64,000 nt of DNA from Bryobacterales bacterium (lineage in GTDB: Bacteria; Acidobacteriota; Terriglobia; Bryobacterales; Bryobacteraceae): assembly GCA_003166865.1 (NCBI GenBank), contig PMUP01000044.1:1-64000 (forward strand), in the 5' to 3' direction. A program made the position numbers and the translations under genes. Position 1 is the first letter of the stretch. Every line of letters begins with the position of its first letter. Below, in pieces: positions 26,954 through 32,674 of the stretch. The notes beneath the pieces were generated by a model. That model searched no databases. It saw nothing but the letters and a program-made list of their open reading frames with translations, and was not told the origin of the DNA.

Positions 26954-28161
26954 TGACGCCACTGCCTGATGCCGGCGGCCACTTCGGTCCGTATGGCGGC
27001 CGCTACGTTCCGGAAGTGCTGATGGCGCCCCTGGAGGAACTCGAGCAAGCTTATCTTGAAGCGCGGCACGATCCGGCCTTTCAAGCTGAGTTGAAAGATC
27101 TGCTGGCCAATTATGCGGGCCGCCCCACGGCTCTGTACCACGCCAAGCGGCTGAGCGAAGCGTACGGAGGCGCGCAGATTTACATCAAGCGCGAGGATCT
27201 GCTGCATACCGGCGCGCACAAGATCAACAATTGCCTGGGGCAGGGGCTGCTCGCGCGGTGCATGGGCAAGAAGCGCATCATCGCCGAAACGGGGGCCGGC
27301 CAGCATGGCGTGGCAACCGCGACTGTGTGCGCTCTGTTTGGACTCGAATGCATCGTCTACATGGGCGAAGAAGACATGCGGCGGCAGCGCCTGAATGTCT
27401 TTCGCATGCGATTGCTCGGCGCGAAAGTGGTGAGCGTTTCGAGCGGCAGCCGAACATTGAAGGACGCCATCAGCGAGGCCATGCGCGACTGGGTGACCAA
27501 CGTTCATTCCACGCATTACCTGCTCGGCTCGGCGCTGGGCGCGCATCCTTACCCGATGATGGTTCGCGATTTTCATAGCGTGATCGGCGAGGAGACCCGC
27601 CGCCAAATCCTGGAGCGCGAAAAGCGGCTGCCGGATTCGATATTCGCTTGTGTCGGCGGTGGAAGCAACGCGATCGGGATGTTTCACGCGTTCCTGGCGG
27701 ACGAGGGCGTGCGCTTGATTGGCGTGGAGGCGGGCGGGCGCGGTGCGGAGTTGGGTACGCATGCGGCGCGCTTCTCGGGTGGATCGCCCGGCGTGCTGCA
27801 CGGCGCGCATAGTTATCTCCTGCAAGACGCCGATGGGCAAGTGGCGCTGACGCATTCGATCTCGGCAGGCCTGGATTACGCGTTGGTGGGGCCCGAGCAT
27901 GCCTGGCTGCATGACAAGAAGCGCGCCGAGTATTGCTCGGTCACCGATCAGCAAGCGCTCGACGCCGCGCGCACGCTGGCCCGCACGGAGGGAATCATTC
28001 CCGCGCTTGAATCCGCGCATGCCGTGGCCGAAGCCCTGCGCCGCGCGCCCGCCGCCAAGGGCGAGATGTTCGTCATCAATTTATCGGGACGCGGCGACAA
28101 GGACACCGATATCTATCGCGAAAATCTGAGAGAGCTGGATGAGCCAGACCAGAGTCGATGA
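26953..28161 (+). CDS. trpB: Tryptophan synthase beta chain
   Basis: A 402-residue PLP enzyme that condenses indole with serine. The N-terminus [17 protein letters not shown] is classic TrpB1, the Schiff-base lysine is K90 in HTGAHKINN, and the PLP phosphate loop is [23 protein letters not shown] and the [16 protein letters not shown] block of the alpha-beta interface are intact. ATG 26953 overlaps the trpF stop by one base; the longer upstream frame is rejected. It overlaps trpA by four bases. Confidence 0.96.
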
Positions 28162-28970
28162 TCCAGACCAGAATCGTCCGGCTCTTTGATCGGCTGCGGG
28201 CCGAGCCGCGTCCAGCGCTGATCGCCTACATCACCGCCGGCGACCCATCGCCCGCCGCGACCCCCGATCTGGTGGCTGCTCTCGAACGAGGCGGCGCGGA
28301 CCTGATCGAGCTCGGCGTGCCTTTTTCCGACCCGATCGCCGATGGCCCGGTGATCCAGCGCGGCAGCGAGCGCGCGCTGAAGGCTGGAACGAAACTCAGC
28401 ACCGTGCTCGACATCGCAGCCGAGATCCGCAAACAGTCTGAGATTCCACTGCTCCTATTCACGTACATGAATCCGGTGCTGCGGTACGGTTTGGAACCGC
28501 TGGCCAAGGCGGCGGTGGCCAGCGGAATCGACGGCTGCCTGCTCACGGACTTGAGCGTCGAAGAAGCCGAGCCATACATTCATGTCATGCGCCGAGCTGG
28601 CCTCGACACTGTGTTCCTGGCCGCGCCCACCAGCAGCCGGCGGCGTCTGGAACTGGTTGCGAAGTACTCCACTGGATTCGTCTATCTGGTTTCGCGAACG
28701 GGCGTGACGGGCGAGCGAGCCAGCGTCTCCGACAGCGCAGCGCCGCTGGTACTCGCCATGCGCGGCGTGACCGAGCTTCCGCTGGCGGTCGGTTTCGGCA
28801 TTTCCACGGCAGACCATGTTCGGGCGATCGGCGCGATTGCCGACGGCGTGGTAGTGGGCAGCGCCTTTGAACGGGTTATAGAACAGAACGCAACCAGTCC
28901 CCAACTTCCCGCCAAGATCGAGGCTCTGGCTCGGGAGCTCGCCAGTGGTTTACTATCGAAGAACCCATGA
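28158..28970 (+). CDS. trpA: Tryptophan synthase alpha chain
   Basis: A 270-residue TIM barrel that releases indole from indole-3-glycerol phosphate. The catalytic glutamate is E51 in [16 protein letters not shown] and the aspartate is D62. [54 protein letters not shown] and [11 protein letters not shown] mark the later strands and phosphate site. Coupled with trpB by ATGA. Indole is channelled to the beta chain in the alpha2beta2 complex. Confidence 0.95.
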
Positions 28971-28982
28971 GCCTGAAAGACA

Positions 28983-29258
28983 ATGAGCACTGACAAGCTC
29001 GCGGATTGCCGCCTGCAAATCGACCAACTGGACGTCAAGATCGTCGAGCTGCTCAACGCGCGCACCGAAATCGTGCATGAAATCGGCCGCATCAAACGGC
29101 AGCTCTCTTTACCCATCTACGAGCCCAAGCGCGAGGATCAGGTCTTTCAAAACGTCACCGGCCACAACCCCGGGCCGCTGACCCCGGAGGCGCTCAAGCG
29201 CATCTTCGAACGCATCATCGACGAGATGCGGACCATCCAGCAAAAGAAGATGAGCTAG
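28983..29258 (+). CDS. Chorismate mutase (AroQ class)
   Basis: A 91-residue all-helical AroQ-type chorismate mutase. CRLQIDQLDVKIVELLNARTEIVHEIGRIK is read as helix 1 with the catalytic arginine in the ARTE segment, followed by IYEPKREDQVFQNV and the second-helix LKRIFERIIDEMRTIQ. It converts chorismate to prephenate, the branch towards phenylalanine and tyrosine. It lies 12 bases past trpA, so the tryptophan and Phe/Tyr branch genes are likely cotranscribed. No fused prephenate dehydratase domain. Confidence 0.92.
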   Translation: MSTDKLADCRLQIDQLDVKIVELLNARTEIVHEIGRIKRQLSLPIYEPKREDQVFQNVTGHNPGPLTPEALKRIFERIIDEMRTIQQKKMS

Positions 29259-29301
29259 CGGGCTGAGAGGATTCGGCCTTGCGCAGTACAATGGAGCATA
29301 G

Positions 29302-29496
29302 ATGAGTAACCTTCAGATCTATACTTGGATCGGGGTGCCGGCCCTGACTGTTCTCATCGGGATAAAGAACCTGCTGGACGTTTTGCATTACAAAGCCCTT
29401 AAGGCCAGATTCGACCGCTTCGACGCCTGGCGCGACAGGGTCGACTCGCAGCTTGAGCAGCCGCTCGGCAAGACGACTGAGCTCGACATCCGATAG
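29302..29496 (+). CDS. Small membrane/coiled-coil protein
   Basis: A 64-residue protein with one hydrophobic N-terminal helix (YTWIGVPALTVLIGI) and a charged helix (KALKARFDRFDAWRDRVDSQLEQ). The overall plan (membrane helix, RFDxxD-type turn, charged helix) resembles the proteins at 22780 and 41034 and it may be a distant member, but the diagnostic MRDLWR block is only weakly present. Family not recognised. Located 43 bases past the chorismate mutase gene. Confidence 0.55.
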   Translation: MSNLQIYTWIGVPALTVLIGIKNLLDVLHYKALKARFDRFDAWRDRVDSQLEQPLGKTTELDIR

Positions 29497-29595
29497 CCCC
29501 CACCACCCGGTGGCCTGCATGGTAAAACTGTGTCTATGAAGCGCCTCGATCGCCAATTCCGGTATAAGGAAATTGGGCCCCTGGAGGGAATGTAG

Positions 29596-29841
29596 ATGGT
29601 CAACTGTCCAAACTGCGATGCCATGATCGACGTGGACGAGGACGACTTGGATGAAGGTGACACGCTGACCTGCGAGGAGTGCAGCGCCGATCTCAGCGTC
29701 ACCGGGTTGAGTCCTCTGGAACTCGAAACTCAAGAGGACGAAGACGAGGAGGACGAAGAAGAAGAGGAAGACCTGCATTACGACGAGGACGCAGACGAGG
29801 ATGAGGATGAAGAAGAAGAGGAAGAAGAGGATTGGCACTAG
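29596..29841 (+). CDS. LysW-like zinc-ribbon protein with long acidic tail
   Basis: An 81-residue protein. Residues 1-30 form a zinc ribbon with CPNC at 4-7 and CEEC at 26-29, the pattern of LysW/ArgW amino-group carriers. Residues 47-79 are almost only Asp and Glu, and the end is EDWH, close to the EDW(GE) end of LysW. LysW carries its substrate on a C-terminal glutamate; here the last residue is histidine, and no lysX/argX ligase is nearby, so that role is doubtful. GGAGGGA precedes ATG 29596. The last 41 bases also encode the start of the next gene. Confidence 0.75.
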   Translation: MVNCPNCDAMIDVDEDDLDEGDTLTCEECSADLSVTGLSPLELETQEDEDEEDEEEEEDLHYDEDADEDEDEEEEEEEDWH

Positions 29842-30214
29842 CCTGATTGGAACTAGCGTTTTGCTGCTGCTAGCCGCCTTTGTTCCAGTTGCGGCCGCCG
29901 CCAAGAAGAAACCGGCGCTCGACACTTATGCCGTGATCAGCGGCAGCGTCTTTCAAGAGAGCGGTTATGCGCTGGCTGACGCCGCTGTAACTTTGGTAGC
30001 GGAGCCTGCGTCCGGGGGCGCAGCTGTGAAAGAGCAAAAAATGGAGGCGGTCTCGGACGCCCGAGGCGAGTTCATTTTTCGTGTCCCGCCCGGCCCCATG
30101 AACTACGCCATCGTGGTTGCGGCCAAAGGCTATCAAAGCCTGCGGAAATCCGTCGCTGTAGAAGGCCAGGAGCGTGTCGAGGTAACTTTCCAACTGGAAC
30201 GCGAGTCAAAATAA
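29801..30214 (+). CDS. Secreted carboxypeptidase-regulatory-like (CarboxypepD_reg) domain protein
   Basis: A 137-residue protein: basic start (MRMKKKRKKR), hydrophobic signal segment (VLLLLAAFVPVAAAA), then a beta-sandwich with ISGSVFQESGYALADAAVTL, ARGEFIFRVPPGPMNYAIVV and AKGYQSLRKSVAVEGQE, which is the CarboxypepD_reg/TonB-plug-associated prealbumin-like fold. It is probably an envelope protein with no catalysis. The first 14 codons lie in the shifted frame of the acidic-tail gene, so basic residues here and acidic residues there share the same purine-rich DNA. An alternative start (ATG 29807) would shorten it by two codons. Confidence 0.8.
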   Translation: MRMKKKRKKRIGTSLIGTSVLLLLAAFVPVAAAAKKKPALDTYAVISGSVFQESGYALADAAVTLVAEPASGGAAVKEQKMEAVSDARGEFIFRVPPGPMNYAIVVAAKGYQSLRKSVAVEGQERVEVTFQLERESK

Positions 30215-30600: not shown

Positions 30601-31176
30601 ATGAGGAAAATTCTCGTAATCGCACTTGCGCTGTCAGCGGCGATCCTGAGCGCGCAGGAATTCAAGGCTGGTTCGCCGGTCGCCGATTTTCAGGTGCGCG
30701 ATCTGGATGGGAAGGCCGTGTCGTTCTCATCGCTCAAAGGCCCCGTTACAGTGGTCACCTTCATCGCCACCCAGTGCCCGGTGTCGAATTCCTACAACCA
30801 GCGCATGATCGAGCTTTACAAGGACTACACGCCGAAAAACGTGAAGTTCATCTTCGTGAACGCCAATCGGTCCGAACCGGCCAGCGAAGTCCGCGAGCAC
30901 GCCAGGCGCGTTGGGTTTTCTTTCCCCGTTTACAAGGATCCGGACAACGTTGTGGCGGACCGCTTCGATGCGCAGGTGACGCCGGAAAGCTACGTCATCG
31001 ACAACTCAGGCATCCTGCGCTATCACGGCTCCATTGACGACGACATGAACGTATCGCGCGTGCATACCCAGCGGCTGCGCCTCGCTCTGGATGCGCTGCT
31101 GGCGGGAAAGCTGGTGCCGGCGACGGAAACCAAGGCATTCGGGTGCACCATCAAGCGCGTTCACAAGGTGTCCTAA
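30601..31176 (+). CDS. Secreted redoxin / thioredoxin-fold protein
   Basis: A 191-residue protein with a signal peptide (ILVIALALSAAILSA) and an AhpC/TSA-redoxin fold: FQVRDLDGKAVSFSSLKGP, VTFIATQCPVSNSYNQRM, FVNANRS and VTPESYVIDNSGILRYHGSID. The usual CxxC is replaced by a single cysteine in TQCPVSN, as in redoxins that contain a peroxidatic-like cysteine. A second cysteine occurs near the C-terminus (FGCTIKR), which could resolve it. Probably periplasmic thiol chemistry. Two bases separate it from the TlpA-like gene. Confidence 0.83.
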   Translation: MRKILVIALALSAAILSAQEFKAGSPVADFQVRDLDGKAVSFSSLKGPVTVVTFIATQCPVSNSYNQRMIELYKDYTPKNVKFIFVNANRSEPASEVREHARRVGFSFPVYKDPDNVVADRFDAQVTPESYVIDNSGILRYHGSIDDDMNVSRVHTQRLRLALDALLAGKLVPATETKAFGCTIKRVHKVS

Positions 31177-31178
31177 TC

Positions 31179-31661
31179 ATGCTGAAGCGCGTGATCGCAT
31201 TTGCCTTCTGCCTGCCGCTATTCGCCACGGGCCCGCTGCCTATCACGCTCGTACCGGTGGATGAAGCGGGCTTCCAAAAACTCGTCAATTCGCACAAAGG
31301 CAAAGTCGCCGTGTACGATTTCTGGGCCACCTGGTGCGCGCCCTGCCGCGCCGAGCTTCCACAACTCGTCAAGCTGGGAGCCAAACTGCGATCCCAAGGA
31401 GTGGAAGTGATCACCATCTCCGCGGACGAACCCGAGCAGAAGGCCGCCGCCGAGAAGTTCATTCAGAAATTCGGGGTGCGCGGGCCGGCGTACCTCAAGC
31501 AGGCCGCCGACGATGACCATTTCATCAACGCCATCGATCCGAAATGGAGCGGCGCGCTTCCGGCCCTGTTTGTATACGACAAATCGGGGCACAAGGTCCG
31601 CTCATTCATCGGCGAAACCGATATGGCGGCGCTGGAAGCCGCAATTCACAAGCTGCTGTAA
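31179..31661 (+). CDS. TlpA-like thioredoxin-fold protein
   Basis: A 160-residue thioredoxin-fold protein starting at ATG 31179, directly after the redoxin stop. A short N-terminal signal (VIAFAFCLPLFATG) is followed by VAVYDFWATWCAPCRAELPQLVKLG with the WCAPC redox motif, EVITISADE and PALFVYDKSGHKVRSF. TlpA-like proteins reduce disulfides in cytochrome c apoproteins or envelope proteins. Coupled with the redoxin at 30601, the two probably act as an electron pair in the envelope. Confidence 0.87.
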   Translation: MLKRVIAFAFCLPLFATGPLPITLVPVDEAGFQKLVNSHKGKVAVYDFWATWCAPCRAELPQLVKLGAKLRSQGVEVITISADEPEQKAAAEKFIQKFGVRGPAYLKQAADDDHFINAIDPKWSGALPALFVYDKSGHKVRSFIGETDMAALEAAIHKLL

Positions 31662-31828
31662 ACCGCATTGTGTAGCCACATTTGACATCGTTGTAACAGC
31701 GTGATACCTTCGGCGCTTAGTGGTATATCAGTCGCGGATCTCTCCCGAAAGGTGTTCGCGGGATCGACGCCCGGCGGCCAGCCCACGAAACGATTTGCAA
31801 GCACTATAATCATTTGAGAGGTGCAACG

Positions 31829-32233
31829 ATGAGAGCTAAGTTTTATGTTTTCGTGGCCGGCCTTGGATTGCTCGCCACCGCCGCGCCGATCATGGCGCAC
31901 CATTCGTTCACGGCTGAGTATGACGCCACCAAGCCAATCACACTCACCGGAGCGGTAACCAAAGTGGAGTGGATGAATCCGCACGCACGGTTCTACATCG
32001 ACGTGAAGGACGATTCAGGCACGGTCACCAACTGGGAGTTAGAGCTGGGAAGCCCGAATGCGCTCATGCGCCTCGGCTGGACTCGCAATTCACTGAAGCA
32101 GGGCGAAGTGGTTACGGTGGAAGGCTCGCTCGCAAAAGACGGCTCGAAGCTCGCCAACGCGCGTAAGGTTACGCTCGCGGACGGGCGCAAGGTCTTCGCC
32201 GGATCAGCGGCGGATAGCGACACCAAGCAATAG
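31829..32233 (+). CDS. DUF6152 secreted protein, copy 1
   Basis: A 134-residue secreted protein starting at ATG 31829 behind GAGAGGTG; an upstream TTG is not used. After the signal peptide (FVAGLGLLATAAPIMA) the mature protein begins HHSFTAEYDATKPITLTGAV, the DUF6152 signature, and continues VEWMNPHARFYIDVKDD and VTVEGSLAKDGSKLANAR, an OB-like beta barrel. The N-terminal His-His could bind a metal; this is inference. A TATAAT hexamer at 31805-31810 lies in the 167-base gap upstream, but with a poor -35. Confidence 0.85.
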   Translation: MRAKFYVFVAGLGLLATAAPIMAHHSFTAEYDATKPITLTGAVTKVEWMNPHARFYIDVKDDSGTVTNWELELGSPNALMRLGWTRNSLKQGEVVTVEGSLAKDGSKLANARKVTLADGRKVFAGSAADSDTKQ

Positions 32234-32251: not shown

Positions 32252-32674
32252 ATGCGCGTAACACAAGCTGTCCTCGCTGCCGGCATTGGTTTGCTCGCGG
32301 CTACACTGCCGCTGGTAGCGCACCACTCGTTCGCCGCGGAATTTGACTCCGCGAAACCCGTCTCGGTGCAAGGCGTGGTGACCAAACTTGACTGGATGAA
32401 TCCGCATATTTGGATCTATCTGGACACCAAGGACGACACCGGCACCGTCGCCCACTGGCAGTGTGAAGGCGGGCCGCCGAACGCGCTGACGCGCCAAGGT
32501 TGGAGCAAAGATGCGCTTAAAATGGGCGACCTAGTTACCATCGATGGCTTTCGCGCCAAGGACGGCACCAACACCTGCAACGCGCGATCGGTGAAGCTGC
32601 CGAACGGCAAGAGCGTATTCGCAGGCTCGGCCGAGGATGGCGGACCCTCCAAGCGCGCCCCCGCGCAGCAGTAA
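32252..32674 (+). CDS. DUF6152 secreted protein, copy 2
   Basis: A 140-residue paralog of the preceding gene, 18 bases downstream. Signal peptide (VLAAGIGLLAATLPLVA), then HHSFAAEFDSAKPVSVQGVV, LDWMNPHIWIYLDTKDD and VTIDGFRAKDGTNTCNAR. The two copies share the NH2-terminal HHSF, the TK(L/V)(D/E)WMNPH block and the NARxVxLxxG C-terminal strand, and differ by one cysteine in copy 2 (TCNAR). Probably a recent tandem duplication. Role unknown. Confidence 0.85.
   Translation: MRVTQAVLAAGIGLLAATLPLVAHHSFAAEFDSAKPVSVQGVVTKLDWMNPHIWIYLDTKDDTGTVAHWQCEGGPPNALTRQGWSKDALKMGDLVTIDGFRAKDGTNTCNARSVKLPNGKSVFAGSAEDGGPSKRAPAQQ

Follow-up and report, generated by a model that had tools for sequence, protein, structure and literature searches.

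In the 64,000-nt window, which is the whole stretch of DNA analysed here, the gene of a LysW-like zinc-ribbon protein and the gene of a predicted exported carboxypeptidase-regulatory-like protein, P2, share DNA in such a way that the acidic C-terminal tail of the former is, one frame over, the start codon and basic n-region of the latter. Comparison with homologous loci confirmed that this is a real, conserved arrangement, widespread among soil Acidobacteria, and not a peculiarity of one contig. What most likely accounts for it is a long, conserved phase-1 overlap where the tail provides P2 with a start codon, with an initiation site that lies open and with most of the n-region of its signal peptide, and where translation of the two genes is probably coupled. 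The features of the locus are collected in Table 1.

Table 1. Genes and shared DNA around the LysW-like/P2 junction (coordinates are those of the window)
Feature	Coordinates	Strand	Description
trpA	28158–28970	+	
Chorismate mutase gene	28983–29258	+	
Small ORF	29302–29496	+	
LysW-like zinc-ribbon gene	29596–29841	+	81 aa; CxxC...CxxC ribbon, Asp/Glu tail ending EDWH
P2	29801–30214	+	137 aa; predicted exported, CarboxypepD_reg domain
LysW-like/P2 overlap	29801–29841	+	41 bases; acidic tail versus P2 start codon and basic n-region
P3	30218–30574	+	118 aa; GTG start, second CarboxypepD_reg protein
Exported redoxin-like protein (AhpC-TSA/Redoxin)	30601–31176	+	probably same operon
Second thioredoxin/redoxin-like protein	31179–31661	+	probably same operon

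A sequence-only reading of the locus had proposed that one stretch, 29801–29842, is used in two frames offset by one and yields two opposite charges. The ORF coordinates bear out the offset and the length of 41 bases as well as the start of the stretch, while its end belongs at 29841, since 29842 lies one base beyond the LysW-like stop. The LysW-like ORF ends in ...EDEDEEEEEEEDWH before its stop codon and P2, in frame +1 relative to it, begins with MRMKKKRKKRIGTSLIGTSVLLLLAAFVPVAAAAKKKP, so that an acidic tail does face a basic P2 front. Judged by its initiation context, a second in-frame ATG, at 29807, is as plausible a P2 start; its use would give a protein of 135 aa and an overlap of 35 bases. 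The third in-frame candidate is a TTG at 29860, within the hydrophobic core, and an ordinary signal peptide therefore requires that P2 start within the overlap. With either ATG the pair is a long phase-1 overlap, defined as at least 7 bases shared on the same strand with the downstream gene in frame +1. Both frames are real genes, having Pfam matches above cutoff and homologues across genera, and the P2 N-terminus, MKKKRKKR...SVLLLLAAFVPVAAAA, reads by eye and by hydropathy as a putative signal peptide (Lys/Arg n-region, hydrophobic core, cleavage region), from which export of P2 is predicted.

The upstream protein matched Pfam Zn_ribbon_LysW (PF21344) with 32.2 bits (cutoff 27), and its four ribbon cysteines were invariant across 25 aligned relatives. 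By eye, a Shine–Dalgarno-like GGAGGG (29583–29588) precedes its gene. Its score against TIGR01206 (22.8 bits) did not reach the equivalog cutoff of 53.2, and the whole genome held only one match to this model, at 23.5 bits. LysW/ArgW carriers have an EDWGE motif and carry an amino acid on the terminal Glu (PMC10433800). The window protein ends in EDWH; a terminal WGE is absent from all 25 aligned relatives (C-termini of the other 24 include WK, WH, WR, W, Y and M), and the best TIGR02144 (LysX/ArgX) match in this genome, estimated to be 96% complete, had 58.7 bits against a cutoff of 275.6. An amino-group carrier role was rejected because EDWGE and a LysX above cutoff are both missing. A terminal DW is common among the LysW-like proteins of the Bryobacterales set, and at every locus read the LysW-like protein with its acidic tail adjoins CarboxypepD_reg genes.

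Of 41 relative genomes, 25 contained the LysW-like gene, as did 254 of 299 genomes belonging to the class. From 309 relatives confirmed in a scan of named genomes, the best 80 were retained, mostly metagenome-assembled genomes (MAGs) whose titles read Bryobacterales, Bryobacteraceae, Terriglobia or Acidobacteria. All 132 loci examined carried the LysW-like gene and collapsed to 107 distinct junctions, which are mutually related and come mostly from Bryobacterales MAGs. At each of the 107 the downstream neighbour was a CarboxypepD_reg gene, of the P2 type in 61 and directly of the P3 type in 46 (in the window, P2 and P3 matched this Pfam family with 47.7 and 44.2 bits, cutoff 32.3). One P2 locus, L031, was excluded from scoring as broken by a frame change; its P2 is divided between frame +1 and then +2, which points to a pseudogene or an assembly error. 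In the remaining 60, the start was taken as the last ATG ahead of the first hydrophobic window, a rule that yields the smallest overlap.

Among these 60 loci, P2 was in frame +1 in 50, in frame 0 in five and in frame +2 in five. The start ATG lay within the acidic tail in 46, all of them in frame +1, and in every one of the 46 it was formed by an Asp GAT codon and the next G. With GTG and TTG permitted as starts, 44 of the 60 still overlapped, a later GTG being present in L029 and L067. The overlapping starts were situated 14 to 80 bases before the tail end (median 29), or 14 to about 56 bases if two doubtful loci are set aside: L032, whose 80 bases would imply a very long n-region, and L017, where the hydropathy rule misplaced the core though an ATG at −32 is present. 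No such overlap was scored in 14 of the 60 loci. In L006, L025 and L089, P2 begins past the LysW-like stop. Another P2 gene, in L005, is intact and has no in-frame ATG, GTG or TTG ahead of its hydrophobic core; it may use a rare start codon or be expressed in some other way, or the sequence may contain an error (this genome is 62% complete). Within the genus of the window, the candidate starts were −41/−35, −44/−35/−29, −41 and −35; the start thus shifts while the overlap stays. The sequence-only reading had asked whether homologues in other Acidobacteria keep the overlap; 46 of the 60 scored P2 loci do, so it is not a one-off.

How P2 might be initiated from within another gene was suggested by the properties of the start region. 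A Shine–Dalgarno 4-mer was present at 95 of 105 starts of the LysW-like gene itself. At the overlapping P2 starts, 4-mers were found in 27 of 46, little over the tail background of 0.54–0.55, and 5-mers in 5 of 46; selection for a Shine–Dalgarno sequence at the P2 start was therefore dropped as a candidate. The median folding energy of 50 nt at the start was −4.2 kcal/mol for the 46 overlapping P2 genes compared with −12.9 for 13 separate P2 genes, −9.4 for 40 P3-first loci and −13.4 for 212 random downstream windows, the weak folding at the overlapping starts being a result of the purine-rich code. The overlap also encodes 201 of the 249 Lys and Arg residues of the n-regions, although in four loci (L027, L075, L130 and L132) it contributes none.

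We propose the following course of events. The LysW-like protein would retain its Asp/Glu-rich tail for reasons of its own. Read in frame +1, such a tail hardly allows a stop codon and yields Lys, Arg, Thr and Met; as GAT followed by G contains ATG, a synonymous Asp change from GAC to GAT suffices for a new start. The codon identity is seen directly in the loci, and from it we infer the GAC-to-GAT step. GA-rich RNA, which folds poorly by computation, would leave the P2 start open, and P2 would draw its start and most of its n-region from the tail. As the start precedes the stop by 14 to about 56 bases and its Shine–Dalgarno matches stay at background, ribosomes translating the LysW-like gene most likely aid initiation, and translational coupling of the two genes is on these sequence grounds plausible and indeed probable. 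Since the LysW-like protein would pay little beyond the start codon, the overlap could persist while the exact start moves.

The reversal of charge, by contrast, is ordinary code geometry. Together with the following G, the codons GAA, GAG, GAC and GAT read AAG, AGG, ACG and ATG in frame +1, that is, Lys, Arg, Thr and Met, and the tails of non-overlapping P3-first loci, translated in this frame, consist of 27% Arg, 27% Lys and 25% Thr. Random tails assembled from the codons of these non-overlapping loci were open in frame +1 in 93% of cases and contained an ATG in 70%, against 23% and 13% in frame +2. The code therefore leads one to expect both the opposite charge and phase +1, and neither is by itself evidence of selection. 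A stop-free frame +1 was likewise rejected as a sign of selection, because over 66 nt the controls were equally open (36 of 40 P3-first loci versus 41 of 46). The sequence-only reading had suggested that the overlap may be chance in a purine-rich run, and for the charge reversal this holds, as any Asp/Glu run would give it; for the retention of the start it does not.

These frequencies also give weight to a purely neutral reading, in which the start drifted into the tail and was kept by descent, with neither coupling nor benefit. It is quite possible, if somewhat short of an even chance, given that phase-1 starts are common, particularly in Asp-rich tails, that an excess of phase-1 overlaps has been published (PMC2542354) and that random tails so often provide the ATG and the open frame. 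The composition of the tails agrees with it in showing no tuning: tails without an overlapping gene are equally acidic, the Glu share of codons 4–11 before the stop is, if anything, lower in overlapping tails (0.64) than in P3-first controls (0.78), and the GAA share, which would reflect tuning for Lys, is 0.49 against 0.50. What argues against neutrality is the upkeep of the start. Among overlapping P2 loci, 43 of 46 have a frame +1 ATG within 50 bases of the stop, compared with 18 of 41 P3-first loci and 2 of 14 P2 loci without the overlap; as the overlapping group is partly defined by having an ATG, 43 of 46 describes this upkeep and is no independent proof of it. Furthermore, the start position moves, from 14 to about 56 bases, and the overlap remains. 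Upkeep of a start is not the same as a benefit of overlapping, and it is solely on coupling and benefit that the neutral reading departs from the explanation we prefer. The earlier suggestion that the overlap constrains both genes is accordingly supported weakly, by the kept start codon, and not by the Glu/Asp mix or the choice between GAA and GAG, which show no shift in favour of P2 relative to non-overlapping tails.

To follow the history of the arrangement, we used a quick tree of 106 loci based on the LysW core and P3. Presence of P2 required 6 changes on this tree, compared with at least 26 for shuffled labels, and the overlap state among P2 loci required 8, compared with at least 9 (mean 12.7) in 300 shuffles. 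Inheritance is thus strong for the presence of P2 and modest for the overlap, which was gained or lost several times. Other families of the class contributed 18 loci (two further stretches of this sample were 10-base placeholders), and in four of the 18 a P2-type gene came first. In three of them (L137, L147 and L150) P2 is in frame +1, and the overlap counted from the nearest plausible start, which is a GTG in L137, measures 11 to 14 bases; L144 has P2 in frame +2 with an overlap of 4 bases. The long overlap may therefore have grown from a short one.

Some P3 genes start in the tail as well. Six P3-first loci overlap nominally by our rule, two of which (L080 and L065) are doubtful because by eye the core is far from the start. 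Five were taken as tail-starting, four of them sound by eye (L040, L041, L062 and L069); on the tree the five require 4 changes and are scattered like shuffles (minimum 3, mean 4.9). L065 was grouped with these five throughout, whereas L080 belonged to neither P3 group in the tail composition test and was treated as non-overlapping P3-first in the tree, random-tail, folding, ATG-near-stop and redoxin counts. A broader and, in our view, rather unlikely idea is that exported proteins arise time and again from acidic C-terminal tails, P2 widely and perhaps, separately, the products of a few P3 genes. An Asp/Glu run would offer in frame +1 an open frame, start codons, an unfolded site and a Lys/Arg n-region, after which a hydrophobic stretch past the stop would be enough for a secretable product; the four sound P3 genes may have adopted the tail start separately. 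Speculatively, the acidic nascent chain may also destabilise the translating ribosome where P2 starts, as acidic nascent chains can do to bacterial ribosomes (PMC9718836).

It is very unlikely that the start has simply been mis-called, P2 beginning later and the overlap being an effect of annotation. All of 715 annotated same-strand overlaps longer than 60 bases were judged misannotations in work cited in PMC10666635, yet the next start in the window is the TTG within the hydrophobic core, and 44 of the 60 P2 loci contain neither ATG nor GTG nor TTG between tail and core. Least credible of all is that ribosomes slip into frame +1 within the acidic run and make a zinc-ribbon/P2 fusion, the ATGs being incidental: in most loci frame +1 stays open deep into the LysW-like gene, and L005 lacks a usual start codon, but a tail ATG precedes the core in 46 of 60 P2 loci, 10 P2 genes sit in frames 0 or +2 beyond the reach of +1 slippage, P3 genes at the same place mostly begin after the stop, and no common slippery stretch was seen by eye.

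Downstream of the overlap, P3 starts after a gap of 3 bases from the P2 stop, and the LysW-like gene, P2, P3 and the two redoxin genes form a probable operon. Of the loci compared, 62 have at least 2.2 kb of downstream sequence, and in 24 of these a redoxin gene follows on the same strand, no more than 2.6 kb away: 21 of 31 loci with P2, two of four P3-overlap loci and one of 27 other P3-first loci. That P2 travels with exported redoxins indicates a role in the cell envelope, as a lead only. Further downstream, two DUF6152 genes lie side by side (31814–32233, 108.2 bits, and 32252–32674, 107 bits), probably a tandem duplication. On the minus strand, an antisense ORF of 236 aa (29215–29925) spans the acidic tail; because the opposite strand of an Asp/Glu run reads Phe, Leu and Val, it is probably a by-product and possibly a mis-annotation.

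If the conserved, probably coupled overlap is the right explanation, the constraint that maintains an acidic tail in one frame would give the neighbouring frame the front of an exported protein, nearly free of conflict. This amounts to a testable rule, which predicts where long phase-1 overlaps and new exported proteins arise. It also means that start calls within acidic tails can be correct.

In the part of the literature searched, we found no precedent for this arrangement of acidic tail, basic start and signal peptide in overlapping genes. The wild-type calreticulin tail is acidic. In calreticulin frameshift mutants, as at our locus, a change of frame turns an acidic C-terminal stretch into a peptide that is rich in Met and positively charged (PMC10076285); there, a disease mutation replaces the tail of one protein, whereas here two genes share the DNA. 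With the LysW/ArgW carriers (TIGR01206, PF21344; PMC10433800) the upstream protein has in common the zinc-ribbon core, an acidic C-terminal segment and a conserved DW near the end; unlike them, it has a longer tail, no C-terminal Glu (EDWGE) and no LysX above cutoff in its genome. Reinitiation at short overlaps is established (PMC10666635), and the pairs coupled by termination and reinitiation resemble ours in being adjacent, co-directional, overlapping and probably co-translated. They typically overlap by 1 or 4 bases (PMC10666635), whereas the P2 start precedes the stop by 14 to about 56 bases, so that P2 is more likely initiated in RNA which the upstream ribosome has opened than by classical reinitiation at the stop. 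Close relatives are the long same-strand overlaps of bacteria, in which phase 1 outnumbers phase 2 by almost 3 to 1, an excess explained by start-codon composition (Sabath, Graur and Landan 2008, PMC2542354). Ours has the same strand, the same +1 frame and a start formed from an upstream NAT followed by GNN, and differs from those described there in its Asp/Glu tail, its occurrence in many genera of one family and its contribution to a signal-peptide n-region. A start codon and basic n-region shared with an acidic tail, repeated across a family, are thus a variant on the known long phase-1 overlaps.
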